Shown here: piece after piece, positions 6,791 through 23,528 of the stretch | Layout of the letters: each line of letters opens with the position of its first letter | How positions within the stretch are numbered: position 1 is the stretch's first letter | DNA from: an uncultured Proteiniphilum sp. | GTDB lineage: Bacteria; Bacteroidota; Bacteroidia; Bacteroidales; Dysgonomonadaceae | DNA: 45,588 nucleotides | Direction: 5' to 3' | Assembly: GCA_927407015.1 (NCBI GenBank) | Contig: CAKMJT010000053.1 | Coordinates: 1 to 45,588, forward strand | Translations under genes and position numbers: made by a program | The notes under the pieces: model-generated | Seen by the model: only the letters and a program-made list of their open reading frames with translations | Databases searched by the model: none | Told to the model about the DNA's origin: nothing

Positions 6791-6842
6791 AGATACTTTC
6801 AGTTATTTGACAGTAAGTCCTTTATTCATATTTAATTCAGCT

Positions 6843-7472
6843 ATGGCCAATTCTACATACACAGGCTCTTTCTCTGCCGGAAGCCTGTTTCACAAAGAAA
6901 CAAATGCACTTCTTCCCTTGCTACGCTCTGTGAACTCCCAGGCCTTATTAAAAAAGGAAATTCAGCAAAATGATTTACTGAAGATCAATTCCGAAAGTTC
7001 TCGGAAAAGAACTGTATCGGAAATTGTAAAACGCTTTAATCACACGGAGAATTCTTTTTGGGACTACTATATAAATCGCAACGAAGAAGAACAAAAAATA
7101 CTCCTTTTCTTCCAATGCTTGAAGGTTTACAGATTAATGTTCGATTTTCATTTCAACGTTACTGTAAAACAGTGGAATTCTTCAACACCCCTGGTAGAGC
7201 CATACTTATATCAAATGGAACTCAATGAAATTGCAGGTAGGGATGAAAAGGTCTATAACTGGTCGGATCTGACCAAAGCAAAAGTGATTTCTGTTTATAT
7301 ACGAATACTGAAAGATATTGATATGTTAGATCCTAAAAGTCTTCGGTTAAAATCATTAAGTTCTGACCTACACTTTTTTTCATATTTTATCAAAATTAAA
7401 GAAGCATGGTTCTTAGATGCGTGTTTGCTTAACGCTCAAATGAAAAAACAAATAATTGAAAGTGCCTTATGA
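6843..7472 (+). CDS. brxA: BREX protein BrxA (DUF1819), 209 aa
   Basis: First gene of the BREX operon. The N-terminus (TYTGSFSAGSLFHKETNALLPLL) has the SFTAGGLLxxE-like opening typical of BrxA/DUF1819, and the length is normal for the family (about 200 aa). BrxA is a small DNA-binding component of type 1 BREX; its exact role is not settled. The frame is open from a TTG at 6807, but the ATG at 6843 fits the family start better. It overlaps brxB by the four bases ATGA, which implies translational coupling. Confidence 0.85.
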   Translation: MANSTYTGSFSAGSLFHKETNALLPLLRSVNSQALLKKEIQQNDLLKINSESSRKRTVSEIVKRFNHTENSFWDYYINRNEEEQKILLFFQCLKVYRLMFDFHFNVTVKQWNSSTPLVEPYLYQMELNEIAGRDEKVYNWSDLTKAKVISVYIRILKDIDMLDPKSLRLKSLSSDLHFFSYFIKIKEAWFLDACLLNAQMKKQIIESAL

Positions 7473-8077
7473 ACATGACTATTGAACAATTATATCATAA
7501 AATGGAAGACAAATCCTTTCAGGATACTACCACCGGCACGTTGTTTTATAATGTGTATATATTTCAATATCCTGCTGAAGACGAATACGAGATATGTAAG
7601 CAGATAGAAACGTTCAAAACAAGATTAAAAAGACCCAGTAATAATTTAGACATTCTTACACTCAATATCTTCGACGAATTTTGTGCCTTTCTATACAATA
7701 AGCCATTTGGCAAAAACCCATCTTTGTTAGAATACCTGAAAAAGAAAGAATTGGATGATCCTAAGGCAGTTAACGATACACTGATACGGAATGCCGAGGA
7801 TAAGGGCTTTTTTGCATGGATCGATAAACGTATCAGGGAACATTTGAACAAAGCAAATGAACTCACAAAATCATTTGTATATCTTTATGGCTTTGGTCAG
7901 ATTTACCCTTACTTACGCACAAACACTTTCTTGTCGAATTTTGAACGTTACAATCACGGTGAAGAATACAAGATCATTGTCTTTTATCCCGGGAAAGCAA
8001 AAAAAAATAGTTTTAGCCTTTTTGGCATCATGAAAGACCAGCATACCTATCGTTCCATACATTTAATTAACGAGTAA
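7469..8077 (+). CDS. brxB: BREX protein BrxB (DUF1788), 202 aa
   Basis: The position between brxA and brxC, the length of about 200 aa, and the conserved pattern match BrxB/DUF1788: ILTLNIFDEFCAFL, then VYLYGFGQIYPYLRTNTFLSNFE, then IVFYPGK. The YGFGQIYPYLR segment near residues 138-148 is the clearest family signature. BrxB is essential for type 1 BREX defence but its biochemical role is not known. The start overlaps brxA by 4 bases, and the brxC start follows after 26 bases. Confidence 0.9.
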   Translation: MNMTIEQLYHKMEDKSFQDTTTGTLFYNVYIFQYPAEDEYEICKQIETFKTRLKRPSNNLDILTLNIFDEFCAFLYNKPFGKNPSLLEYLKKKELDDPKAVNDTLIRNAEDKGFFAWIDKRIREHLNKANELTKSFVYLYGFGQIYPYLRTNTFLSNFERYNHGEEYKIIVFYPGKAKKNSFSLFGIMKDQHTYRSIHLINE

Positions 8078-8103: not shown

Positions 8104-11100
8104 ATGAGATTAGCTGACATTTATAAAAAACTGATTAATCGTATTATCAATCCGGCTGTTGTGGCTCAGGACAGAACACAGGACACAATTGATATTGAAA
8201 TTGATGAATATGTGTTTACCGATGAAATTATCAACAGCTTATACAAAGTGCTGCTGGCCATCAAAGACAAGGATAAGGTAAGTAAAACGGGTATTTGGCT
8301 CAATGGTTATTATGGTTCCGGGAAATCTCACTTTCTCAAATACGTGCACTATTGTATTGATCCCAGTACAAGAGATAGAGCTTTCGGTCGTCTCATACAG
8401 GCCATCATAGACCGTGATTATTTAAAGCACCCGGATAGCAGGATTACAATGAACAATGCTGAAATCAATGAATTGAAAAGATGGTACGACCAGGCCGAGA
8501 TTGATGACGTGCTTTTTAATGCGCAGGATGTCTCAAAAGCCAACCGCGATAATACAACATTCACCAACATTTTTTTCAAGATGTTCAATCACAGTCGTGG
8601 TTACAATGCCTATAACATTCCATTGGCTCTGCTTTTTGAAAAATATCTCGACAACAACGATGCCTTTGAACAGTTTAAGGAAAAGCTGGAAAAGGAGGAG
8701 GGATTCGTGTGGGAGAATGATGCTGCCGATGTTGTAAGCAACGAGCTCGACACTGTCCTCAGAGTGGCAAAAAAATGTGTGCCGACTCTCGATACCGAAG
8801 CGCTGAAGGCTACTTTGCTAAACCCCGATAGTTACCACATCGACACTCGGAAATTCGCGAATGAGATAAAAAACTTTTTGGCCGCCAAAAACGAAAATTA
8901 CCGCTTTATTTTCCTGGTCGATGAAGTCTCTCAATTTGTGAATACAAATAGTGAAGTTTTACTTGACTTGCAATCGGTGATTGAAAACCTGAGCCTGACT
9001 TGCAACAGGCAAGTATGGGTTACCTGTACAGCCCAGCAAACTATTGATTCGGTTATTGCCGACACCGGTATCACGTCGGGTGATGATCGGTATGGTAAAA
9101 TTATGGGACGCTTCGAAACGCGCGTCTCCATGGAAAGCACCGATCCGGCATACATTACCCAAAAAAGAATTCTGGAAAAGAAACCTACCGCTGAACTTGA
9201 ACTGAAAAAAATGTTCCGGGAGAACAAGGATGCTATCCTGAACCAGTTCAACATGGGGCACGAACTGTACAAAAGTTACCGAAACGAGGAGGACTTTCTG
9301 CTCTCCTATCCGTTTGTACCCTATCAGTTCAAACTTATTTCGAAAGTCTTCGACGCTTTTCAACAACTCGAATATGTTGTTGTTGAAGTAAAGGACAACG
9401 AACGTTCCGTATTAAAAATTACCCATGAAACAGCCAAACAGAATAGTGAACTGGAATTGGGCGCGTTTATCCCTTTCGATGCTTTCTTCAATCAAATGTT
9501 TCGGCAAAATCTGATACACAAAGGCTCAAAAGCCATTAATCCCGCCTTGGAACTGAGTTTTGTGAAAAGTGATCTTTTTGCACAACGGGTTGTGAAGCTG
9601 TTATTCATGATTTCAAACCTGATGGAAAGTGACCGACTCAATTTCGGTTCTTCGCTCGACAACCTCACATTGCTGATGATGAACAGGATTGATGAAAACA
9701 AGCTTCAATTGCGGAATAACATTGAAAGAGTACTTCGCCAGTTAATCGAAAGCAATATTATACGCGAAGAAAACAACAATTACTATTTCTATAACGAAGA
9801 TGAGGTGGAATTATCGACCCTTATTGCGAATACCACCCCGGGTACCGAATTTATGGCCGACGAAATGAAGGCAATTCTTTTCAGTTGGTTGAAAGTCGAT
9901 AACAAAGAGCGCTATGCCGGGAACGACTTTAAAGTGATTGCCAATATCGATGGCAAAAATTATCTTGGCAATAACGGAGATATTACAGTCTCTTTCGCAA
10001 TCACCGACCAGCAGGACGCCACTATCAAAAGCCTGAATAATCCTTCCAATTCGGTCGTATTCTGTTTGAATGAATGGTTCAAAGAAGATATTGATCTAAA
10101 ACAAGACTTTTTGTGGTATTGCCGGGTCGAAAAGTATATCAAAAGCAATCAGCAATATGCCACTGAAGCGCGCAAGCAATCCATTGATAATTTCAAAAGT
10201 CGCAATGCCGATATTTTGGCCAATAAAATAAAACCGGTCATTCAGCGCAGATTTGCAGAATCTCGATTTATTTCGGGAAATACAGTGATAGAACCGAATG
10301 AGATTAATGGTGATGGTGCCGAAAGGTATCATCATGTATTGCAACGTCATCTTGAGAATGTGTACAAATATGCCAAGCTGACTCTTGGGATGCCGCTTAC
10401 GCAGGAAGAGTTGAAACATCGTGCATTTCGTAAGGCTGATCCCAACGATTACAGCGAGGTTCATGAGATGACGGATGCGGAAAATAGGGTGAATGATTTC
10501 ATTACCTACAATGGTAACGAAGCATTATTATCCGATATTATTGATAAATTCAAAGCAGCTCCCTATGGTTGGAAAGATGTAACCATTATATATATTCTCA
10601 CTGAGTTGTTCAAACGAAAACTTAGGGTGTTTACCTACCGTAACCAACCTCGTTTTCCGCTTACTGACTTTGTGAACAAGGGATTGATGTCGGCTGAACG
10701 ACCACTGATAGGCATTACTGCTGTCGAAGGCATTTCCCAGGAATTGATCAACAATGCCATCCAGGCCTGGATGATAATTTTCAACGAGCATATTCCTGCC
10801 ACGGGTGATGGGAACATGCTTTTTGATAATTTGCTTGAGCGACTCAAAAAGTCGAAAGATGATTGGCAAAAGGTGAAGAATGAATATGAAAGTTTTCCTT
10901 TTGTAAAATCTCTCAGTGAGATAACCGATAAGTTGGCTGAGTTGCTGACCATACGTGATCCGAAAAGATTGTTTGAGAATCTGCATAACGATGCGGCTGC
11001 CATGGCAAGCTTGATCGACCGGTGCCGGAGTATCAAAGATTTCGCCGATCATTCTATTATCGATTACAACGAAATAAAACGATACTGCGAAAATAACGAA

Positions 11101-11706
11101 GAGAATTTCCACCAGCTCGACAAGGAAAGCAGTGAAAAGGTGAAACTGATCAAGGAGTTTTTCCATTCCGAAGATCCATCTAACGATTTCAGGACATACA
11201 AAAAAATGCACAAAGAGCTGAAAGATGCCGTAACATCCAAAATTAAAATGCTCAAAGAGGAAACCAGATTGCTGTACGAAAATATTTTCGATCAGTTGAA
11301 CTCGCTCGCCAATGAAAACAATTTAGCTCCGTCCATTTATGCCAATCGTGAGTATAAATTAAAGCAAATTACCGGCTTAAATTCCATCACGGCACTTCAG
11401 CTTATTTTATCTCGTGCAGATGGTTTTTTTGACGATGAAAGGTCAAAAATTCTGTTGGAAGCCCATAAAATGGAACAGGAGCGTAAGCAAAGAGAACAGG
11501 AAAAGAAACGCCGGGAAGATATCGCAAGAGGCAGAGTTCCGAAAACTCCCGATCCTGATATAGCTGCTTCACCACCTGTCAACTATGTACTGCCAAAACC
11601 GAATAAAATCCTTTCTACTGAAACGGAAGTGGAAGATTATATTGACGACATTCGCAAAAAAATGCTCGAGATGATCAATAACAACCAAAAAATTCTGATT
11701 AAGTAA
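8104..11706 (+). CDS. brxC: BREX ATPase BrxC (1200 aa)
   Basis: This is the large ATPase of type 1 BREX (formerly PglY-like). The P-loop NGYYGSGKSH lies at about residues 69-78 and the Walker B-like strand FIFLVDEVSQF at about 267-277. The remaining ~900 residues are mostly helical, and a charged Glu/Lys/Arg-rich helix near 1120-1150 precedes a short C-terminal tail. Its length is usual for the family (about 1200 aa). It acts with BrxB, PglX and PglZ in host methylation and phage exclusion. A strong hairpin terminator directly follows, so transcription may partly stop before the inserted HEPN-like gene and pglX. Confidence 0.95.
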   Translation: MRLADIYKKLINRIINPAVVAQDRTQDTIDIEIDEYVFTDEIINSLYKVLLAIKDKDKVSKTGIWLNGYYGSGKSHFLKYVHYCIDPSTRDRAFGRLIQAIIDRDYLKHPDSRITMNNAEINELKRWYDQAEIDDVLFNAQDVSKANRDNTTFTNIFFKMFNHSRGYNAYNIPLALLFEKYLDNNDAFEQFKEKLEKEEGFVWENDAADVVSNELDTVLRVAKKCVPTLDTEALKATLLNPDSYHIDTRKFANEIKNFLAAKNENYRFIFLVDEVSQFVNTNSEVLLDLQSVIENLSLTCNRQVWVTCTAQQTIDSVIADTGITSGDDRYGKIMGRFETRVSMESTDPAYITQKRILEKKPTAELELKKMFRENKDAILNQFNMGHELYKSYRNEEDFLLSYPFVPYQFKLISKVFDAFQQLEYVVVEVKDNERSVLKITHETAKQNSELELGAFIPFDAFFNQMFRQNLIHKGSKAINPALELSFVKSDLFAQRVVKLLFMISNLMESDRLNFGSSLDNLTLLMMNRIDENKLQLRNNIERVLRQLIESNIIREENNNYYFYNEDEVELSTLIANTTPGTEFMADEMKAILFSWLKVDNKERYAGNDFKVIANIDGKNYLGNNGDITVSFAITDQQDATIKSLNNPSNSVVFCLNEWFKEDIDLKQDFLWYCRVEKYIKSNQQYATEARKQSIDNFKSRNADILANKIKPVIQRRFAESRFISGNTVIEPNEINGDGAERYHHVLQRHLENVYKYAKLTLGMPLTQEELKHRAFRKADPNDYSEVHEMTDAENRVNDFITYNGNEALLSDIIDKFKAAPYGWKDVTIIYILTELFKRKLRVFTYRNQPRFPLTDFVNKGLMSAERPLIGITAVEGISQELINNAIQAWMIIFNEHIPATGDGNMLFDNLLERLKKSKDDWQKVKNEYESFPFVKSLSEITDKLAELLTIRDPKRLFENLHNDAAAMASLIDRCRSIKDFADHSIIDYNEIKRYCENNEENFHQLDKESSEKVKLIKEFFHSEDPSNDFRTYKKMHKELKDAVTSKIKMLKEETRLLYENIFDQLNSLANENNLAPSIYANREYKLKQITGLNSITALQLILSRADGFFDDERSKILLEAHKMEQERKQREQEKKRREDIARGRVPKTPDPDIAASPPVNYVLPKPNKILSTETEVEDYIDDIRKKMLEMINNNQKILIK

Positions 11707-11811: not shown

Positions 11812-13524
11812 ATGTCGTTTTTATCTATAACCTGTGACAAAGATAATACATTTTTTCATGTTATGAACGATTCTTGTAAATATTTTTTCAATAAATCCAT
11901 GGAGCTTCTGCATAGAAAATCCTTTGATACTTATCGTGTTAACCTTCACAACCCTTATACGATCTTTGTTGAATTGTATAAAAGTATTGATAAATTCAAC
12001 AAAAAAAGGATCAAGAACTTTGACCCTACAATAACCTCAATCGTTCAGGAAGCTACTGGTTTTCTCCAGAATTGCTATTTAGATTGCGTTTTTTCTTTTG
12101 ATACTTTTGGAAAAAAACAGGCCGTTACAATACTTGATAATACAACTAAGTCTGATAAGGATGGTAAGAAAAATCGAACTTTGTCCTTGTTATGTAAATC
12201 AATTGAAGTTGAAAATATAGAGTTTAAAAAAAATCTCTTTGTTAAAATTAAATCATTGCTTGTAACTGACGATAAAGCAAACTTTGAACAAATTGATTTA
12301 TACACTTCATGGTTAGTAACTCAATTGATACACCAAGGTTATTCTCGTAAATTCATTCTTGATAGAATACGTAAAAGCAAAACATTCTTAGATAATAATA
12401 GTACTATTGAAATTGTTTTTTCAAAATTAAATACTGTATTTGATAACAATAGAGATGATTATGAAGCAATTTTCAAAATCAAACCTAATTCGGCAGACAC
12501 TTTACTAATAGCTTCAAATCAAATAAACGAACTTGATACCTTTCCTAAAGAATTTGAAAATAAAAGATATATTAGTGAGCGTTTTAAAGAAAGGTCGGAA
12601 GGAGAGAAGTATTTATCCGTTATAATAAATAGTCTTGACTTCTGGTCAGCATTAAGAACTACGTATTTATTGGTGACAGAGACAGTTGAAATAAACTGCC
12701 TTCATGATATTGATAATAAAATAACACTTGACAAACAAGCTTTGATTATCCATTGTAGTTCACGAAGCTACAGGATGGAGTCAATTGAAGAGAATTTAGA
12801 TGGTTTCTATGATTATCAGGAATCTGACTTTGTGCGATTTGTTGAAAATTTTAAAGCATTAAACGGAAGAAGTAACGTAGCTTACGAAAAAATAAGATCA
12901 GCGATAAGATTTTATAAATTAGGGAACGATTCCCAAGAAATTGAGCATAAAATTTTGAATTATTGGATTGGGTTCGAACAATTATTTTCAGCTATTGACA
13001 CCGAAGAAGATTCTATAAATCGCATGAAATCATTTTTCATTGCTATCAATGCTGTGTATTATTGGCAACGCAGAACAACCTATCTTCTAAACAGAGCGGG
13101 TGTAAATTATAGTTTTGAGAATTTTACAAATTCTCAACTTCCTGTTGATCCTCATCCCAACCCTCAGATTCAACACAGATTAGAAAAGTATGTCGTATTG
13201 CTAAATGATAAAAAAGAGCTAAGAGGTTCCATTGAAAAACATATTAAAAGGTTAAATCAACATTTAACACGCATTTACCGTGTTCGCAATGAGTTGGTTC
13301 ACGAAGGTAGAACATCTGTCGATTTGTTCCTTATTGCTGGTCATTTAAGACACTATTTACTCTTTTCTATCGAACAAATAACCAATGAATTAATAGAAAA
13401 TCAAACCCTCGGATGTTTAGATGATGTGTTTGTCTATTTCGAGAACATTCTGGAACGAATTAAGGATGCAAACAACATTAAAGAAATTTTTGAAATCAAG
13501 AAATATACTGGTTACATGGAATAA
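11812..13524 (+). CDS. HEPN-like (Apea-like) accessory protein inserted in the BREX locus (570 aa)
   Basis: I recognise no full-length family. The C-terminal third reads like an Apea-type HEPN domain: a helix ILNYWIGFEQLFSAI near residues 380-395, and RVRNELVHEGR near 489-499 containing RNELVH, an Rx4H motif of HEPN ribonucleases. The N-terminal two thirds are Lys/Asn/Ile-rich and helical without motifs I can name. The gene is clearly more AT-rich than brxC and pglX on either side, and a terminator separates it from brxC, so it looks like a separate acquisition. HEPN proteins in defence loci often act as RNA-cleaving abortive-infection effectors; that role is inference. The ATG at 11812 has no clear ribosome site, and an in-frame Met (HVMNDS) about 17 codons on is an alternative. 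Confidence 0.7.
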   Translation: MSFLSITCDKDNTFFHVMNDSCKYFFNKSMELLHRKSFDTYRVNLHNPYTIFVELYKSIDKFNKKRIKNFDPTITSIVQEATGFLQNCYLDCVFSFDTFGKKQAVTILDNTTKSDKDGKKNRTLSLLCKSIEVENIEFKKNLFVKIKSLLVTDDKANFEQIDLYTSWLVTQLIHQGYSRKFILDRIRKSKTFLDNNSTIEIVFSKLNTVFDNNRDDYEAIFKIKPNSADTLLIASNQINELDTFPKEFENKRYISERFKERSEGEKYLSVIINSLDFWSALRTTYLLVTETVEINCLHDIDNKITLDKQALIIHCSSRSYRMESIEENLDGFYDYQESDFVRFVENFKALNGRSNVAYEKIRSAIRFYKLGNDSQEIEHKILNYWIGFEQLFSAIDTEEDSINRMKSFFIAINAVYYWQRRTTYLLNRAGVNYSFENFTNSQLPVDPHPNPQIQHRLEKYVVLLNDKKELRGSIEKHIKRLNQHLTRIYRVRNELVHEGRTSVDLFLIAGHLRHYLLFSIEQITNELIENQTLGCLDDVFVYFENILERIKDANNIKEIFEIKKYTGYME

Positions 13525-13569: not shown

Positions 13570-16500
13570 ATGAACACTTCCGCGCTTAAACGTTTTGCCC
13601 AACAGGCTCGCAACATACTTATTTCAGGGGTAGGTAAACAACTTATCTATTGGGGATACGATCCCGATGCAAAACAATTTACCATTGAACCTCAGCAAGT
13701 CTTTGGTGGGTTGCTTTTTGGCGATAGAATGATCGACGACCCCTCGGTGTACCCCAAATGGCTGGCACTCAAAAAAGCTGTGACTGTCAAAGGCGTAAAT
13801 CAGGTGGTGGAAGAAGCTGCTTATACCTGGTTCAACCGACTGATGGCCATTCGTATTTTGGCAAAGAACAACTACATCGTGCCGCAGTTGGAATATACCG
13901 GTACTGCTACCCGTACGCCTGCAATTGTGCAGAATGCCAAAAGAGGCATAACACCCTTGCTGGATGACGTGCAGCGTAAGATACTTGTTCGTTTACTCGA
14001 CGACGACCGCCTCGAAACAGAACAATTTACGCTGCTTATTACGGCTTATTGCCATCAGAACAAGTTGCTGCAACGCGTTTTCGGGCGCCTCGACGATTAC
14101 ACCGAGTTGCTGTTGCCCGCTGATATACTTGCTGTCAATGGCTTTATCGATCTGTTAAACACTACCGATGCGATTACCGACGACGACTACCGGCAGGTGG
14201 AGCTGATTGGTTGGCTTTATCAGTTTTACATTTCGGAGAAAAAAGACGAAGTATTCAAGAAGTTCAAGAAAAAGAAAAAAGCAGAGGCAGAAGATATTCC
14301 GGCAGCTACACAGATTTTCACACCCAACTGGATCGTGAAATACATGGTGCAAAACACCGTCGGTCGTCTGTGGCTCGACCTCAACCCCGACTCTCCTGTC
14401 CGCGAAACGATGAAATATCTGGTCGAACCAGAGACTAAAGGCTCCTCATCAATCGGGGAGGCTGGCGAAGGGGTTCCCTTAATTTCAGAGGTCGCACAAC
14501 TGAAGCTCCTCGACCCCGCCTGTGGTTCCGGCCACATTCTGGTGGAAGGTTTCGACCTGCTCTATGCCATGTATCGCGAAGAGGGTTATACGGCTGGAGA
14601 ATCGGTACGCTCAATATTTGTGAACAATCTTTTTGGCCTTGACATTGACCAGCGTGCTACCCAGCTTTCAAATTTTGCTCTTTTACTGAAAGCTGCTGCA
14701 AAAGATCGAACCATATTGGACCGTGACCTGCTGCCGCATGTCTATGCCATGCCCGAAAAGGAGGTTTTAACCCGTGAGGAGGTGCTCGAATTTCTGGGCA
14801 ATGCCAATGCCGCTCATGTCGATGCGCTTTACAGCTCTTTGGAATTGATGCAGCAAAGCCAAAACCTGGGTTCAATCATGAAATTCTCATTCTCAGATGT
14901 TGCACGGGATGCTATTATCAAACAAACTGCTGCATGGAAATCGAATTCCGAACTTGATCTTGTGCAGCAAGACCTATGGAAACGGCTTACACCTTACTTG
15001 CAAGTGCTGCAGGTGTTGACGGCAAAATACGAAGCAGTGGCTGCCAATCCGCCGTATATGGGAGGGGGGAATATGAATGATAACCTCAAAGAGTACGTAA
15101 ACACCGAATATCCCAAAAGCAAATCCGACCTTTTCTCCGTATTTATGGAGGTGTGTATGAATTTTTGTCAACCTGCTGCACGTATGGGTATGATTAATAT
15201 GCATTCGTGGATGTTTCTGTCTTCCTTCGAAGCCCTGCGTAAATTCATAATTGAATCGTATTATGTTGAAAACATGTTGCATTTAGGGCCACGTACATTT
15301 GATGAACTAAGTGGTGAAGTAGTGCAGAATACGGCTTTTGTATTACAAAACAATAAATCAGTAAAAAATGGAATATATTTTCGATTAGTTGATGGAGGAA
15401 ATAGTACGGCAAAACAACAAATGTTCTTGAAGGGTGAAAATTGTTACCCCCATATCTCCCAAGCCAACTTCGAAAAAATACCAGGTAGCCCAATTGCGTA
15501 CTGGGTGAGTGAGAGGATAACTAATGTTTTTAGTGAAAAGAAAAGTGTTAAATTTATAGCTGATGCAAAACAAGGGATAGCAACAGGTAATAATGAATTA
15601 TTTTTAAGGTTTTGGAATGAAGTTAACTTTAAGAATATCTCACTCGATACTTCTTCTAATAAATGGTATCCTTATCGAAAAGGTGGTACTAATAGAAAAT
15701 GGTATGGTAACTTTGAGCTTATAGTGAATTATGAAAACAATGGCTATGGTATCAAAAATAATAGGGATAAAGATGGAAATCTTAGATCAAGACCCCAAAA
15801 TCTTGAATTTATATTTAAAAAAGGATTAACATGGTCTTTAACAAATTCAAGTTTTTTTAGCATGCGTTTTGCGCCTGAAAACTCCTTATTTGATGTTAAT
15901 GGAATGACTTTATTCCCTAAAAATGAAGGAATACTATTTTATTTAATTGGCTTATTTAATTCAAAGGTTAGTAATTATTTTTTGAAAATAATTAATCCTA
16001 CGATGACTTTCCAATCAGGAAATATTGAGGATGTTCCTTTTATTTTCAAAAAAACAAACACATTTCAACAAGAATTTAATGTTTCAATTTCCAAATCCGA
16101 CTGGGATTCCCGCGAGACCTCTTGGGATTTTGAAACACACCCATTAATCAAAGCAGAAGAACCCACCTTACAATCGGCTTATCAGGCATGGGAAACCCAG
16201 GGGACGCAGGATTTTTATCAACTGCATGCCAACGAGGTGGAGCTGAACCGCATTTTTATTGATATCTACGGCTTGCAGGACGAACTGACCCCCGAAGTAA
16301 AACTAAAGGACATTACCATTTTGCAGGAGGAGTTGGATACAAAAGCTTTTGGCGAAGCTACCGAGCCTGTCGGTACACTGCCCATAAAGCAGGATGTGGT
16401 GATGCGTCAGCTCATCTCTTACCTGATGGGCTGCCTGATGGGGCGCTACAGGTTGGATAAGCCGGGCCTGCACATTGCACACCCTAATCCCACGGCCGAA

Positions 16501-17094
16501 GAAACGAGTGCTTATACCTACAACAATCACATCTTATCAATAGACGATGACGGCATTATTCCGCTCATGGACAGCTCATGCAGCTTTGCCGATAATGCCC
16601 TGATCCGCCTCAAACACCTGCTCGAAGTGCAATGGGGTGACGATAAACACCTGGTAGAAACCATCAACTTCATGGAAGCTGCACTGGGTAAAGATATGGA
16701 ATCCTATTTGGTAAAAGACTTCTGGAAAGATCATTGCTCACGCTACCAGAAACGCCCTATCTACTGGCTCTTTGCTTCACCTAAAGGTGCATTTCAGGTG
16801 ATTACCTACATGCACCGCATGAACAAATACACCGTCGATAAAATCCGCAGTAAATACCTGCTGGTTCATATCCGTAACTTAGAAAACCAACTTAGCGTGC
16901 TGCAAGCTGACAATGCCTCGCTCAATCGCGAACAGTCCAAACGAATGGATAAAGTCAGATCCGATCTGGACGAATGCCGGGCCTACGACCTTTTACTGAA
17001 AGACGTAGCTGATCACCAGATTGAATTCGACCTCGACGATGGTGTGATAGTGAACTATGCAAAATTTGCTGGAGTGGTTACACCCATTAAGTAA
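13570..17094 (+). CDS. pglX: BREX adenine-specific DNA methyltransferase PglX (1174 aa)
   Basis: PglX methylates an adenine in an asymmetric motif to mark host DNA as self. An N-terminal helical region (about 1-240) precedes the methyltransferase domain, with motif I DPACGSG at about residue 314, a FGLDID segment near 353 and catalytic motif IV NPPY at about 492. A target-recognition region follows (about 550-840), then a C-terminal helical part with coiled coil near 1100-1150. Length is normal (about 1200 aa). The segment at roughly 15240-16090, which covers the recognition region, is much more AT-rich than the rest of the gene, suggesting a swapped specificity cassette. A 45-base AT-rich gap separates it from the HEPN-like gene. 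Confidence 0.95.
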   Translation: MNTSALKRFAQQARNILISGVGKQLIYWGYDPDAKQFTIEPQQVFGGLLFGDRMIDDPSVYPKWLALKKAVTVKGVNQVVEEAAYTWFNRLMAIRILAKNNYIVPQLEYTGTATRTPAIVQNAKRGITPLLDDVQRKILVRLLDDDRLETEQFTLLITAYCHQNKLLQRVFGRLDDYTELLLPADILAVNGFIDLLNTTDAITDDDYRQVELIGWLYQFYISEKKDEVFKKFKKKKKAEAEDIPAATQIFTPNWIVKYMVQNTVGRLWLDLNPDSPVRETMKYLVEPETKGSSSIGEAGEGVPLISEVAQLKLLDPACGSGHILVEGFDLLYAMYREEGYTAGESVRSIFVNNLFGLDIDQRATQLSNFALLLKAAAKDRTILDRDLLPHVYAMPEKEVLTREEVLEFLGNANAAHVDALYSSLELMQQSQNLGSIMKFSFSDVARDAIIKQTAAWKSNSELDLVQQDLWKRLTPYLQVLQVLTAKYEAVAANPPYMGGGNMNDNLKEYVNTEYPKSKSDLFSVFMEVCMNFCQPAARMGMINMHSWMFLSSFEALRKFIIESYYVENMLHLGPRTFDELSGEVVQNTAFVLQNNKSVKNGIYFRLVDGGNSTAKQQMFLKGENCYPHISQANFEKIPGSPIAYWVSERITNVFSEKKSVKFIADAKQGIATGNNELFLRFWNEVNFKNISLDTSSNKWYPYRKGGTNRKWYGNFELIVNYENNGYGIKNNRDKDGNLRSRPQNLEFIFKKGLTWSLTNSSFFSMRFAPENSLFDVNGMTLFPKNEGILFYLIGLFNSKVSNYFLKIINPTMTFQSGNIEDVPFIFKKTNTFQQEFNVSISKSDWDSRETSWDFETHPLIKAEEPTLQSAYQAWETQGTQDFYQLHANEVELNRIFIDIYGLQDELTPEVKLKDITILQEELDTKAFGEATEPVGTLPIKQDVVMRQLISYLMGCLMGRYRLDKPGLHIAHPNPTAEETSAYTYNNHILSIDDDGIIPLMDSSCSFADNALIRLKHLLEVQWGDDKHLVETINFMEAALGKDMESYLVKDFWKDHCSRYQKRPIYWLFASPKGAFQVITYMHRMNKYTVDKIRSKYLLVHIRNLENQLSVLQADNASLNREQSKRMDKVRSDLDECRAYDLLLKDVADHQIEFDLDDGVIVNYAKFAGVVTPIK

Positions 17095-17266: not shown

Positions 17267-17878
17267 ATGGATAGCCTTGATGATAAAATACTTACAAAAA
17301 TTAAAAAAGCGAAGAGGGGTTCGCTCTTTTTCACCGAGGATTTCCTGAACTTTGGTTCAGCAAAAGCGGTGGCAAAAACCCTGGAGAGATTGACTGTAAA
17401 AGGTGAAATTTCAAGGGTAGCTCGTGGCATTTATGCTCGCCCGGCTCACGATCCTTTGTTAGGTGAATTAAAACCAAGTACCGAAGCGATTGCCAATGCT
17501 ATTCGCAAACGGGACAAAGCCCGCATTATGCCTACCGGTGTATTGGCAATGAATGCATTGGGGCTTTCCTCTCAGGTACCCATGAATGTGGTTTACCTTA
17601 CCGATGGTGCTGCTCGTAAAATTGACTTGGGTAAACGCAAAATTCTTTTCAAAAAATCATCACCTAAAAATCTTTCAGCCATTGGTAAAATTAGTGGGCT
17701 GGTTATTCAGGCATTAAAAGAAATTGGAAAAGGCAATGTTACCGAAAACGAAATACAGCTGATACTTAAGCAACTGGAAAAAGAAGTGCCTTACAGGTTA
17801 GAGCACGATATACGTTTGGCTCCCGAATGGATAAGAATAATCATGCGCAAAGCATTAAAACCGAAAACGGATGAATAA
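17267..17878 (+). CDS. abiEi: AbiEi-like antitoxin/transcriptional regulator (203 aa)
   Basis: An N-terminal winged helix-turn-helix is seen at about residues 8-60 (LFFTEDFLNFGSAKAVAKTLERL, then ISRVARGIYARP), as in type IV AbiEi antitoxins and the related DUF6088 group. A second domain follows (about 75-200) with MPTGVLAMNALGLS and YLTDGAARKIDLG. AbiEi represses the operon and counteracts AbiEii. The stop overlaps the start of the next gene by 8 bases. The pair sits between pglX and pglZ with its own promoter, so it can be expressed separately from BREX. Confidence 0.85.
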   Translation: MDSLDDKILTKIKKAKRGSLFFTEDFLNFGSAKAVAKTLERLTVKGEISRVARGIYARPAHDPLLGELKPSTEAIANAIRKRDKARIMPTGVLAMNALGLSSQVPMNVVYLTDGAARKIDLGKRKILFKKSSPKNLSAIGKISGLVIQALKEIGKGNVTENEIQLILKQLEKEVPYRLEHDIRLAPEWIRIIMRKALKPKTDE

Positions 17879-18908
17879 GTGGCTCGCTATTGCTGATGAA
17901 ACGAAAAGGAATGCATACATTCAAATTGCTGAAAAATCAGGTATGTCTGCATTTGCCGTTGAGAAAGACTGGTGGGTGGTACAAACCTTATCGGTCATAT
18001 TCGGGATGGAAGTTGGGAAACACCTTATTTTCAAGGGTGGAACGTCGCTGAGCAAGGCATGGAAATTGATCGAGCGATTTTCAGAGGACATTGATCTGGC
18101 CATTGACAGGGATTTCTTTGGGTATGATGATGAGTTGACAAAGAAAGAAAGAGGGAGATTGCGTAGAGCATCCGGCATCTATGTGGATACTGTTTTCTTC
18201 AATGAGTTGAAGTCTGGATTTGAAACCAATGGCTTCAACGACTTGAGAATGGAACTGGTACAAGAGATAGAAAGCGATAAAGACCGTACCATTCATATTT
18301 TCTATCCCAATGTAATCCCTTCGCCAGGATACGTGCAACCGAAGATACAACTGGAAATCGGATGTCGTTCGTTGCGTGAACCGTTTACCATGCAGCCTAT
18401 CGCTTCATTGGTCGATGAAAACTATCCCGATAGTGAATTTGCCAGGGAAGCGGTCAATGTGCCAACTGTTAATCCTGAACGGACTTTTTTAGAGAAAATA
18501 TTTCTGCTGCATGAAGAATTTCAACGTCCCGCCGAAAAAATGAGAGTGGATAGGCTTAGTCGTCATCTATACGATGTATACAAACTCTCGGGGAAAGATT
18601 TTGCGGAAAAAGCATTAAGCAACAAGGAATTGTACCAGACAATTGTTGATCACCGTTATAAGTTTAATCGCATTGGGCATATAAATTATAATCTGCACCA
18701 GCCCCAGACCATTAATATGTTGCCGCCACCACAGGTGATGGAAGCATGGAAAGCAGATTATGCAACCATGGTGGAACAAATGATTTATGAGACAAATCCC
18801 CCGACATTCAACGAGCTAATAAGCGGACTAACAAGATTGAAAGAAAAAATAAATTCAATGAAATGGAAATTTGAAATTGAATTTCCAAATCCAATAATTC
18901 CTGATTAG
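17871..18908 (+). CDS. abiEii: AbiEii-like nucleotidyltransferase toxin (345 aa)
   Basis: The DNA polymerase beta-like nucleotidyltransferase signature is clear: IFKGGTSLSKAW at about residues 53-64 and RFSEDIDLAID at about 68-78, giving the GGTS motif and the DxD metal ligands. In characterised AbiEii/MenT enzymes this domain adds nucleotides to tRNA 3' ends and blocks growth. The C-terminal half is helical with a conserved ERTFLEKIFLLHEE segment near 203-216. Length fits the larger AbiEii-type proteins (about 300-350 aa). It overlaps abiEi by 8 bases and is followed by pglZ after 35 bases. Confidence 0.88.
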   Translation: MNKWLAIADETKRNAYIQIAEKSGMSAFAVEKDWWVVQTLSVIFGMEVGKHLIFKGGTSLSKAWKLIERFSEDIDLAIDRDFFGYDDELTKKERGRLRRASGIYVDTVFFNELKSGFETNGFNDLRMELVQEIESDKDRTIHIFYPNVIPSPGYVQPKIQLEIGCRSLREPFTMQPIASLVDENYPDSEFAREAVNVPTVNPERTFLEKIFLLHEEFQRPAEKMRVDRLSRHLYDVYKLSGKDFAEKALSNKELYQTIVDHRYKFNRIGHINYNLHQPQTINMLPPPQVMEAWKADYATMVEQMIYETNPPTFNELISGLTRLKEKINSMKWKFEIEFPNPIIPD

Positions 18909-18943
18909 AATTGACATTGATTCAAATCTTCAAAGCGTATTCC

Positions 18944-21466
18944 ATGTTACAAGATAAAATTATCAGTTATTTCCAACGCAACCCGAAATTGAAAGTCCTT
19001 TTCTTCTTTGATCCTGACGGTACGAACCTGTCTGAGGTGAAGGAGTTGATGCTCGATGATGTTCGGGTGAAGTATTTTCAGCACGATTGGTTCAATGCCA
19101 AACTGGAACTGAATGCCTTGCAGGACAATGAAAAAGTGTTTTTTTACCTGCTCATGGCCTCGCCCCAAAGTCAAACGGATTTCGAAAACTTTCCTCTGTT
19201 GGGTTTGCTTAAAGCCAACAAGGAACTGAAGATGGATGATGTGGCTGGTTTTATGGAGGAGTATCACTTGCAGCCTCATCAGTTGGGTTTGGTAAGACGA
19301 TACATGGAAGAATTGAAATTACACAAGACTCAAAACGTATTGAAACCCTTTCTCAATGCTGCTGGCTTCGACGAAAGGAATGTGCAACAGGGTCTGTTTT
19401 GTTCTTTCCTCGACTTTGGCAAAATGGAAGACTGGGACACCATTTTTGTCCGGTTACTCTCTTACACTCTCCCCAACAAGGAGAGTGAGTTGAAACGCTT
19501 TTTGAAGAAAACATCTGATCTCGGTTTGTTGGATGTGCTGAACAATAAGGTTCGTCAACATTTCGATTGTACCCTCTCGTCTGCTGATTCTTCCGAAATA
19601 ATTGATCTGGTTAAAAGACTCAAATACAACTCCATTGTTCAGGGTCTGGTTACTAAAGAGGCTGATCCTTACAAGGCTTTGAAAGTGAACAACGCCGACT
19701 GTCTGGAAGCAATGAACCGCCTACGCGAGATGGGTTTTAATCACCCTACCATGGGCACTCCTTTTGCAGGGGCATGGGAACTGAATGGATCGGCCATACT
19801 TGAGTCTAAACTGATCGATTTATATGGATTGGACGCCGAATATATCTATCAAACCGATGCTCTGAAATGGGAGATGATCAAAAGAGTGCTCTTTCAGCCA
19901 CCGGGTAACTGGTCGGAAGCCGAAAAAAAACTGGAACAAATCTCTGTTCAGACTCAGGATGAGGGTGTGTTGAAAAATACACTGTCATTCTTACGCTATT
20001 CTATTGGGGTGCTAAGTAAAATAAACAAGGTCTCAAGCTTTATCCTGGATAGACCCGAGGATTATCTGAAACGGTATACCGAAGAATTTTTTCTGATTGA
20101 TTATTATTACCGCAAGGGTGTGTTGTTCTTACGCAATTTGGAAATGGGAGAAACGCCCATTGAAGGAGAATTGGAAAAATTAAAACAGAAAATCGAAAAT
20201 CAATATGCTCGATTTACCTATACGCTCAATCATGAGTGGCTTGCCTGTTTGAGTGCTGTAGGCTACGACTATAAAAAAATTCAGGCTCAGAAACAATATG
20301 ATTTTTTTCAAAACTATGTTTCTCCGCTCAAACAAAAAGTCGCTGTCATCATCAGCGATGCGCTGCGTTACGAAGTGGCGCATGAACTGGTCAATGAACT
20401 GCATAAGGACGATAAGAATGTTTCTGAATTATCTTTTCAATTGGCTTCAATCCCATCCGAAACCTCTTTCGGCATGGCAAACCTTTTACCGGGTAAAAGT
20501 TATGTGTATGATGGGGAAATAACTATTGATGGGGAAAAAACAATGAGCTCCAACCGGGATAAAATTCTCAAGAAGCATTCCCCAACCTATCAGGCGGTTA
20601 GTTTTGAAAATATCCTTAACGGAACAAAATCATCGAACAGGGAATTGTTTAAAGCCGAAGTGGTCTATATCTATCATGATACAATCGACAAGGAAGGTCA
20701 CAGCGGTAACGAACGGAAAACATTCAACGCCTCACAGGAAGCAATTGCCGAACTTACCAGGATGGTGAAAAATATTCAGGGCGGATTCAATGTGAATAAG
20801 GTCATTGTCACTTCCGACCATGGTTTTATTTACAATGACACCGATATGGATGAAGCGGACAAGAACCAAATGGGGGATTGCACGATGACCGAAGCAAGTG
20901 CCAGGCATTACATCACCAACGAAGATCCTGATATATCAATAGGTCATAAAATTTCATTGTTCAAAACGACGAAGTATCAGGAGGCATTTCAGGTGATTAT
21001 TCCCGATTCGGTGAACCGTTTCAAAAAGCCCGGATCACGCTATCGCTTCACACACGGGGGAGGAAGCTTACAGGAATTAGTTGTGCCGGTGATTGTCAGC
21101 TCTCGCAAAGAGGAAAAAATTCAACGGAAAGTGAACACGATGTTGTTGAGCCGTAATTTATCCGTGGTCTCAAACAATCTCAAAATTCAATTGGTACAGG
21201 AGAATCCGTTGTCGGCGAAGGAAAAAGAAAGAACGGTTGTGATCGCTATTTACAGCAACGATGAGGTGGTTTCCAACAAAGTTCAATTGCTGCTCAATTC
21301 TACCAATGAGCTGCCCTCTGAGCGTATTTTTACCGTTTCTTTGTCTCTCAATACCAAAGTGGCTGAAACTTTGCTCAAATTGAAAATATACGATAAAGAT
21401 GATCTGCTCAATCCGTTGATGGAGGAAATTGTAAAAAATAATACCTTAATTGAAAGGGATTTCTGA
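18944..21466 (+). CDS. pglZ: BREX alkaline-phosphatase superfamily protein PglZ (840 aa)
   Basis: The C-terminal half holds the PglZ domain of the alkaline phosphatase superfamily: VIISDALRYEVAHEL near residue 468, YIYHDTIDKEGH near 575 and VTSDHGFIYND near 622, which give the predicted metal ligands (Asp, His, Asp-His). The N-terminal half (about 1-400) is helical, as usual for type 1 PglZ. Length fits (about 830-870 aa). PglZ is a required BREX component thought to act as a nuclease or phosphodiesterase. The frame is open from a TTG at 18911, but the ATG at 18944 (MLQDKII) is the likelier start. brxL begins one base after the stop. Confidence 0.93.
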   Translation: MLQDKIISYFQRNPKLKVLFFFDPDGTNLSEVKELMLDDVRVKYFQHDWFNAKLELNALQDNEKVFFYLLMASPQSQTDFENFPLLGLLKANKELKMDDVAGFMEEYHLQPHQLGLVRRYMEELKLHKTQNVLKPFLNAAGFDERNVQQGLFCSFLDFGKMEDWDTIFVRLLSYTLPNKESELKRFLKKTSDLGLLDVLNNKVRQHFDCTLSSADSSEIIDLVKRLKYNSIVQGLVTKEADPYKALKVNNADCLEAMNRLREMGFNHPTMGTPFAGAWELNGSAILESKLIDLYGLDAEYIYQTDALKWEMIKRVLFQPPGNWSEAEKKLEQISVQTQDEGVLKNTLSFLRYSIGVLSKINKVSSFILDRPEDYLKRYTEEFFLIDYYYRKGVLFLRNLEMGETPIEGELEKLKQKIENQYARFTYTLNHEWLACLSAVGYDYKKIQAQKQYDFFQNYVSPLKQKVAVIISDALRYEVAHELVNELHKDDKNVSELSFQLASIPSETSFGMANLLPGKSYVYDGEITIDGEKTMSSNRDKILKKHSPTYQAVSFENILNGTKSSNRELFKAEVVYIYHDTIDKEGHSGNERKTFNASQEAIAELTRMVKNIQGGFNVNKVIVTSDHGFIYNDTDMDEADKNQMGDCTMTEASARHYITNEDPDISIGHKISLFKTTKYQEAFQVIIPDSVNRFKKPGSRYRFTHGGGSLQELVVPVIVSSRKEEKIQRKVNTMLLSRNLSVVSNNLKIQLVQENPLSAKEKERTVVIAIYSNDEVVSNKVQLLLNSTNELPSERIFTVSLSLNTKVAETLLKLKIYDKDDLLNPLMEEIVKNNTLIERDF

Positions 21467-21467
21467 T

Positions 21468-23528
21468 ATGGTACTAAAAGAAAAGATTCTCACTCACTTC
21501 GAGGGAAAAGTGGTGCGTAAAGACTTGGCTACAATCGTTAAAGGCAATTTACCGGTCCCTACTTATGTGATTGAATATTTACTGGCTCAATATTGTGCAT
21601 CGGACGATGAACAACTCATCGCCGATGGCATTGAAAGTGTAAAGGATATTATTCGCAATAATTATGTGCACAGGGCCGATGCCGAGAAAATTAAAGGTCG
21701 TATCAGGCATCACGGCCGTTTCAGGATCATCGACAAGGTGAAAGTACAACTGAACGACAAACTGTTAAACCAGTATGAGGCTGACTTTGAAAATCTGGGT
21801 ATCAAAAATATTCCTATCAGCGATGCTGATGTACAACGAAATCCCAAATTTCTGAGTGGAAACGGCGTGTGGAGTATATTGACTCTGCTCTACGACCATG
21901 CTGACACTGCAAAATTAAGATGGGGGATTGAAGACATAAAACCCATTCAGATTTCAGCGGTCAACATCGATGAGTTCATCGATAATCGCCGGCATTTCAG
22001 TACCGACGAATGGATTGATCTACTGGTTCATTCTATCGGTCTGAAACCCGAAATACTGAACAGAAGGGGCAAGTTTATTCAGTTGTCACGTCTGCTGCCT
22101 CATATCGAGAATAATTACAACTTCATGGAGTTGGGCCCCAAGGGAACGGGTAAAACACACATTTTTCAAGAACTTTCTCCTAACGGGGTGTTGGTTTCGG
22201 GGGGGGATGTGACCTCAGCTCGCCTCTTTGTAAAACATTCCGGGAACAAGGAAATCCTTGGCTTAATCGGCTATTGGGATGTAGTTACCTGGGACGAATA
22301 CGAACACCAGCCGGGTAAGAAAATCGATCCAACAATGATTGAGACCATGCAAAATTATCTGGCCAATAAATCATTCAACAGGGGTGGTGCTACACATGAA
22401 GCTACCGCTTCCATGGCTTTTATTGGCAATACGAAACACACGGTTCCTTACATGCTCAAGAATACGCATCTATTCGAATCAATACCCGATGCATTCATCA
22501 AAGGAGCTTTTCTCGATCGTATTCACTATTACAGCCCGGGGTGGGAGGTACGGGTACTCAAAAAAACATGGTTTAGCGACGGATTTGGTTTTATTTCGGA
22601 CTATTTAGCAGAATTGTTGCACGAGCTGCGTAAACAGGACTTCTCTCCGTTGATGAATCAATATGTAAAATTTGACAACTCTCTTTCCGAACGCGATCAC
22701 AACGCGATTCGTAAAACATTTTCAGGTTTGATGAAACTCATTTATCCCGATAAGAATATCACAAAGGAAGAAGCGTTGGAGTTAATCGATTTTGCAGTGG
22801 AAGGGCGTAAACGGGTAAAAGATCAACTTTATATTATTGACGAGACATTCCGGGCAGAACCTGCACTTTTCAGTTATACTGTCATTCCCGATGGGGAGGT
22901 TGTGTCCGTTGAAACGCTTGAACGTTTAGCCAGTCAGGGGTTATTTCAACCTCTTAAACCTGAATCTGAAGATGATGCTGATACTGATGTAGAAGATAAA
23001 AATGCTGTTAATGAACAGGAAGTAAAAACAAAGCGGCCAAGAATTCAACCCTCACCTCAGGTTAAAAATATTACGGTTCGCGAAAATCAATCTGGTATCT
23101 CATACCAGATGTTATTTGGCGATTATGTCAAAGGTGCTACTCAAATAACCATTGAAGATGCATACATCCGATTTCCTTATCAAATCAAGAATCTGATTGA
23201 ATTTTTAAGTTTGATCGCGCAGCAGAAAGAAATTGATGCCGATGTTAAAGTGAATCTTGTGACATGGAACACCGATGAGTATATTCCGGATTCAATAGAT
23301 GCTTTCGATGAAATAAAGGAATCGGTTGCCGAGATTGGTATTGACTTCAACTACGAATTCAAGAATATCCACGACCGTAAAATCTCCACCGATACTGGCT
23401 GGGATATTATGCTGGGTAGAGGGTTGGATATTTTCGAGCCTCGCAAAGGCTACTCGATTGAGGAGTTCTTGCAGGAACACCGTAAGTGCAAAGCTTTTTC
23501 AATTACCTATGTCAAAAATAACAGTTAA
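21468..23528 (+). CDS. brxL: BrxL-type AAA+ ATPase with C-terminal MIT_C-like domain (686 aa)
   Basis: Residues about 1-460 match the BrxL ATPase: an N-terminal helical domain, P-loop MELGPKGTGKTH near 218-229, then WDVVTWDEYEH and IETMQNYLANKSF segments. I see no Lon protease active-site serine motif (GPSAG-like) or Lys partner after it. Instead, an acidic linker (about 500-530) leads to a domain with SYQMLFGDYVKGA, ITIEDAYIRFPYQIKNL, IHDRKI (near 634) and GWDIMLGRGLDIF (near 643). That series reads like the MIT_C domain (phospholipase-D-like fold), as in eukaryotic MITD1. So it probably keeps the BrxL motor but has a different effector or binding end. The ATG at 21468 follows the pglZ stop by one base. 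Confidence 0.85.
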   Translation: MVLKEKILTHFEGKVVRKDLATIVKGNLPVPTYVIEYLLAQYCASDDEQLIADGIESVKDIIRNNYVHRADAEKIKGRIRHHGRFRIIDKVKVQLNDKLLNQYEADFENLGIKNIPISDADVQRNPKFLSGNGVWSILTLLYDHADTAKLRWGIEDIKPIQISAVNIDEFIDNRRHFSTDEWIDLLVHSIGLKPEILNRRGKFIQLSRLLPHIENNYNFMELGPKGTGKTHIFQELSPNGVLVSGGDVTSARLFVKHSGNKEILGLIGYWDVVTWDEYEHQPGKKIDPTMIETMQNYLANKSFNRGGATHEATASMAFIGNTKHTVPYMLKNTHLFESIPDAFIKGAFLDRIHYYSPGWEVRVLKKTWFSDGFGFISDYLAELLHELRKQDFSPLMNQYVKFDNSLSERDHNAIRKTFSGLMKLIYPDKNITKEEALELIDFAVEGRKRVKDQLYIIDETFRAEPALFSYTVIPDGEVVSVETLERLASQGLFQPLKPESEDDADTDVEDKNAVNEQEVKTKRPRIQPSPQVKNITVRENQSGISYQMLFGDYVKGATQITIEDAYIRFPYQIKNLIEFLSLIAQQKEIDADVKVNLVTWNTDEYIPDSIDAFDEIKESVAEIGIDFNYEFKNIHDRKISTDTGWDIMLGRGLDIFEPRKGYSIEEFLQEHRKCKAFSITYVKNNS

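Follow-up and report, generated by a model that had tools for sequence, protein, structure and literature searches.

The brxL gene, its C-terminal domain and its operon

We analysed a 45,588-nucleotide stretch of DNA from an uncultured Proteiniphilum sp. (contig CAKMJT010000053.1, the window), in which a bacteriophage exclusion (BREX) operon closes with a brxL gene (21468..23528, on the plus strand like all features below) whose product ends in a domain of the MITD1 family. The encoded protein of 686 amino acids scores 516.6 bits against TIGR02688 (cut-off 329.3) and is matched over residues 3-684 by the PADLOC BrxL model PDLC02508 (860.7 bits). It carries the BrxL_N domain at residues 10-142 (21495..21893; Pfam PF20442, 1.8e-40) and the BrxL AAA+ ATPase domain at residues 153-463 (21924..22856; PF13337, 3e-117), which bears out the BrxL match of the AAA+ part proposed in a preliminary description of this DNA. 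The P-loop GPKGTGKTH is read in the translation at residues 223-231 (22134..22160), and its residues 223-229 do not vary across the 58 sequences aligned. Motor and tail are joined by a linker (residues 492-527, 22941..23048) that is predicted to be flexible, with a predicted local distance difference test score (pLDDT) below 50 in the full-length model.

The tail is an MIT_C domain (residues 543-683, 23094..23516; Pfam PF16565, 2.7e-41), matched at full length with 141.2 bits against a cut-off of 25 and covering profile positions 1-142 of 142. In the structure comparison the solved structure closest to the predicted domain model was MITD1 (PDB 4a5z, 2ymb), and the model has a phospholipase-D fold, so that both the MIT_C-like C-terminus and the phospholipase-D-like fold claimed in the preliminary description were recovered. 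A chance match to PF16565 was dismissed on the strength of the profile search and the structure comparison together. The same description had stated that a Lon protease end is missing, and this also holds: the whole-protein Pfam search gave no match to Lon_C at E <= 1 (nor to the MIT domain, at the same threshold), and the 675-position model TIGR02653 aligned over positions 4-454 only, with a score below its cut-off. Existing annotation labels such proteins Lon protease-like, in line with a divergent Lon protease domain at the C-terminus, but against these profile results we find that reading hardly credible; the lack of a Lon structure among the 50 VIA-align matches listed proves nothing alone. 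Replacement of a Lon-like end, as had been suggested, is borne out by ten BrxL relatives that were scanned, of which seven have Lon_C at the same place, two have MIT_C and one has nothing.

The operon is a type-1 BREX, with brxA (6807..7472; PADLOC BrxA, 1.3e-29), brxB (7469..8077; PADLOC BrxB, 3.7e-45), brxC (8104..11706; NF033441 of NCBIfam, 685 bits against a cut-off of 400), pglX, the BREX-1 adenine methyltransferase (13570..17094; NCBIfam NF033452, 1179 bits, cut-off 500), and type A pglZ (18911..21466; NCBIfam TIGR02687, 334.5 bits, cut-off 270.35) upstream of brxL. A gene of 570 amino acids between brxC and pglX (11812-13524) had no family match in Pfam (E <= 0.01), NCBIfam (E <= 0.01) or PADLOC (E <= 0.001), and the interval between pglX and pglZ holds an AbiEi/AbiEii-like toxin-antitoxin pair inside the operon (17267-18908; PADLOC 2.1e-71 and 2.8e-102).

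A conserved pocket in a common form of BrxL

Conservation was read from 80 named loci, the best 80 of 588 relatives and hence selected for their likeness to the BrxL of the window. Seven positions (D564, Q572, T599, H635, R637, G644 and W645) are identical in all 80 and N575 in 79. Three motifs line the predicted pocket. EDAYIR (residues 563-568, 23154..23171) contributes D564 together with R568, which is kept in 78 of 80; HDRKISTD (residues 635-642, 23370..23393) contributes H635 and R637 in the form HxR(x4)D where HxK(x4)D would be expected; and GRGLD (residues 650-654, 23415..23429) contributes R651 (77/79) and D654 (79/79), counted over the 79 loci that have a residue at the position, while G650 is not conserved. 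Across 137 domains, the window's own and 136 gathered by two initial protein searches, R637 is present in 137 and H635 in 136. The HxK(x4)D catalytic motif of the phospholipase D superfamily is thus absent, HxR standing in its place in 80/80 named loci. Variation is found at position 636 (A in 41 loci, D in 39) and at position 642 (D in 62, N in 15, S in 3). The N or S at 642 and the conservation elsewhere point to a core made of H, R, GRGLD and D-x3-R-x3-Q, and not of the published HRD triad. MITD1 (three sequences from two mammals) retains D564, R568, Q572, N575, H635, R637, R651 and D654, and has N at 642.

To see how common this form is, samples of four phyla, drawn evenly, were searched for the BrxL ATPase, and the tails were classed with purpose-built profiles, the Lon profile being built on 7 Pfam-confirmed examples. 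Phylum labels were inferred from the named centre loci; the label of the window's phylum rests on sample genomes whose BrxL is identical to that of named Chlorobiaceae and Balneolaceae records, in agreement with Bacteroidota in GTDB. In the Bacteroidota sample (296 genomes) PF16565 was found in 22, above the cut-off in 19, and the 32 strong BrxL frames among the 38 matches listed comprised 17 with MIT_C (the window's included), 10 with Lon, 3 without an end and 2 broken by contig ends. Pseudomonadota (249 genomes) gave 10 BrxL, 4 with MIT_C (including the centre genome, chosen for having one) and 6 with Lon, and Actinomycetota (246 genomes) gave 17, namely 5 MIT_C (centre included), 7 Lon and 5 unclear. 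For Bacillota (249 genomes) there were 37 strong BrxL among 40 matches: 30 taken as loci were 1 MIT_C, 21 Lon and 8 short, and the others were 5 Lon (two weakly), 1 MIT_C in the centre genome and 1 unclassified. Weak PF16565 matches in this phylum mislead: 24 genomes matched and 3 did so above the cut-off, being a BrxL (G904), a fragment interrupted by stops (G927) and L215, a MalK-type ABC ATPase, and most of the other 21 cover the same profile stretch as L215 (58-125). Two genomes (G094, G197) hold the MIT_C form and the Lon form of BrxL, each on separate contigs.

Matches were found in 25 of 72,556 plasmid records and in none of 50,697 phage records, and four IMG/VR contigs, reached through one sequence pattern, all carry BrxL-MIT_C; spread of MIT_C by viruses is therefore not supported by the phage records or by IMG/VR. 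The architecture is common and already in print. Since PDLC02508 covers its whole length, the form was present in a defence library by 2023, and PF16565 has been named among BREX-associated Pfam families (PMC12715929). One plasmid locus (L233, Hymenobacter sp. BRD67) has BrxL annotated in several short pieces, with MIT_C as a gene of its own, and is probably a broken copy. A protein of 1105 amino acids (P0072), with BrxL, MIT_C and PglZ domains listed, is apparently a BrxL-PglZ fusion.

The domain also occurs outside BrxL. One protein (L041:5098-8307, genome G157) has MIT_C followed by 17 Sel1 repeats and adjoins genes for an Mrr-type endonuclease and an Eco57I methylase; two (P0229, P0247) have an N-terminal half of no known kind before MIT_C; a 947-amino-acid protein of the Thiodictyon plasmid pTs485 (L234:5643-8486) joins a dynamin GTPase domain to a C-terminal MIT_C; and one of 349 amino acids on the Paenarthrobacter plasmid pYJN5-1 (L235:5440-6489) has an IF2_N domain and then MIT_C. 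H635, R637 and D654 are kept in all five, and the dynamin fusion has lost R568 and W645. A 308-amino-acid protein with a weak MIT_C match (1.3e-7) was also seen beside an AAA_15/AAA_21 ATPase gene (L042:3868-6706, genome G123).

Repeated capture by BrxL and kinship with MITD1

For the N-terminal and AAA+ regions of BrxL a tree of 116 rows was built, from 34 of the 80 named loci, hand-chosen for spread, and from the genome samples. Rows that were unclear, cut off or known repeats were excluded; two identical pairs remained. MIT_C appears in this tree at three places. The main clade holds 57 rows drawn from many phyla, L046 and L190 form a pair within the Lon forms, and L044 and L168 form another within the forms that lack an end; the starred branches require three changes. 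A mixture-model tree of 55 rows, picked by hand, recovered the same three places, and a single MIT_C clade was rejected (approximately unbiased test, p_AU 5e-12); here the starred branches require two changes only, with L046 and L190 placed among Lon forms at support 81-94. Long branches were flagged in both trees, one of them adjoining L044 and L168 in the larger. Taken together, the sequences support at least two captures of MIT_C by BrxL, and three are likely.

The two pairs differ in their surroundings. Judging by gene content, L046 and L190 look type-1- or type-6-like, with a pglX-type methylase and pglZ beside brxL. The L044 and L168 loci carry DUF4007 (SspB-like) and a DNA methylase, together with an ATPase resembling SspC/BrxC and a weak match to PglZ, and no phosphoadenosine phosphosulfate (PAPS) reductase is present among the genes scanned; they are a type-4-like BREX with methylation. 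The type-4-like set (DUF4007, SspC-like, weak PglZ) with a DNA methylase and BrxL-MIT_C was noted at L200 and L201 (in G140 and G608).

In a 37-row tree of the domain itself, MITD1 and one metagenomic protein group with L046 and L190 (99/95). The remaining BrxL tails lie outside this group and have two non-BrxL tails nested among them. The grouping of MITD1 with this pair persists without the long metagenomic row and with the dynamin and IF2_N fusions added (98/89), and its support reaches 100/99 once the odd fusions are excluded. On the fusion-containing tree the approximately unbiased test alone fails to separate MITD1's partner branch, because the main BrxL group there includes one row that is not a BrxL; on the fusion-free tree, placing L046 and L190 with the main BrxL tails was mildly rejected (p_AU 0.024) and placing them with the L044 and L168 tails was not (p_AU 0.15). 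Sloth MITD1 is identical to L190 at 69/141 positions (48.9%) and to L046 at 67/141 (47.5%), compared with 33.6% for the window domain and 34.6-40.1% for six other bacterial tails or fusions; the comparison covers two BrxL of this branch and two mammals, in an unrooted tree without an outgroup for the direction of transfer.

MIT_C would then be a mobile module that BrxL acquired more than once and that eukaryotic MITD1 has as well. As a tentative and rather improbable extension, we propose that it serves bacterial anti-phage systems as a phosphodiesterase module and was captured by BrxL motors at least twice, and that the phospholipase-D-like domain of MITD1 descends from a BREX branch of the L046/L190 type (one Chlorobiaceae-like and one Bacillota genome). 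If true, MITD1 would be a domesticated immune effector domain with its active pocket still kept. The kinship of MITD1 with one BREX branch would make its pocket a testable enzyme candidate and would add an animal protein to those that have a domain in common with bacterial immunity. We found no report of such kinship in the literature searched, in which MITD1 and BREX were not queried as a sole pair; one cancer review contains both words, in its reference list only.

Possible function and comparison with known systems

How BREX blocks phage DNA, and whether BrxL itself acts on that DNA, is still debated, and point mutations in the conserved phospholipase-D-like pocket of this widespread BrxL form would give a clean test of cutting by BrxL. 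From the sequence and the predicted fold, the reading we lean towards is that the MIT_C end is a nuclease and nicks or cuts the phage DNA that the motor ring holds. The ring would load onto DNA like the studied BrxL, the tails of two rings would pair, their two HxR half-sites would make one active site, and cutting would follow. Single-motif phospholipase-D nucleases form one active site from two half-sites, and each BrxL chain has a single HxR motif. In its favour are the conservation of the pocket, the nucleases among the fold neighbours and the binding of DNA by the BrxL ring (PMC10164562), and the published reading of the HRD-bearing BrxL end is likewise an HKD-type DNase (PMC12839542). 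Several points weigh against it: the catalytic lysine of HKD is arginine in all 80 named loci, and the motif aspartate is replaced in 18 of them; the pocket kept in MITD1, and largely in the dynamin fusion, suggests lipid or phosphate binding; PglZ is reported as a BREX nuclease (PMC12839542), so that BrxL need not cut; and the full-length model fails over residues 220-365, too poor to place the tail.

The domain could instead bind phosphate without catalysis and tether the BrxL ring, with the phage DNA in it, to the membrane, much as MITD1 is reported to bind membranes; this we consider possible if rather unlikely. MITD1 is the nearest solved structure and has the same pocket residues, its fold reportedly binds membranes according to a 2012 study, and the Thiodictyon fusion pairs the domain with a dynamin GTPase; however, the near-invariant residues make a phospholipase-D-like HxR...GRGLD pattern, the fusions to BrxL, Sel1 and IF2_N offer no membrane context, and the studied BrxL acts on DNA (PMC10164562). 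More doubtful still is that MIT_C only pairs two BrxL rings, without chemistry, and leaves the cutting to PglZ. The Lon-like end of the solved BrxL does pair rings without a protease motif, as given in the same source, and some BrxL lack an end altogether (11 rows of the 116-row tree), but a pure spacer should not hold H635, R637, D564 and Q572 in 80/80 named loci, nor share its pocket residues with MITD1 and the other fusions. The different effector step foreseen in the preliminary description is plausible, although the contrast it drew with protease-bearing BrxL is not borne out: a simple pattern search found a GPSxG-like serine motif in 0 of 44 Lon-type tails, and BrxL is described as lacking a Lon active site (PMC10164562 and PMC12839542). 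The contrast would thus be between a likely nuclease and a catalytically dead Lon-like domain.

Among known proteins of phospholipase-D fold, SauUSI, NgoAVII, BfiI, Nuc and NucT share 7-16% identity with the window's domain over the aligned part, and differ in that the window's BrxL has HxR for HxK and a BrxL-type AAA+ motor. The solved BrxL of Acinetobacter (PDB 8emc) has N-terminal and AAA+ domains that align with residues 7-457 here, whereas it ends in a Lon-like domain lacking a protease motif (PMC10164562) and the window's BrxL ends in MIT_C. MITD1 belongs to the same Pfam family, is the best fold match and has the same pocket residues except for N at 642, but bears an N-terminal MIT domain in place of the AAA+ motor, and acts in cell division linked to the endosomal sorting complexes required for transport (ESCRT), according to PMC9477494.

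The closest published form is the BrxL with a C-terminal HKD-endoDNase of Rakesh and Krishnan 2026 (PMC12839542, which credits Li et al. 2025, the Menshen paper). As here, the Lon-like end is replaced in type-1 BREX and an HxR(x4)D motif is present. In the main text of that paper MIT_C, MIT and MITD1 are absent, the HKD end is specific to type 1 with type-4 BrxL lacking an end, and the aspartate belongs to an HRD triad, whereas in our named loci this aspartate is not conserved and two type-4-like loci have MIT_C, which extends the type-1-only statement. The present analysis adds that this end is identified with the domain of MITD1 by its sequence, its fold and its pocket, that BrxL has captured it repeatedly, and that type-4-like loci have it too.
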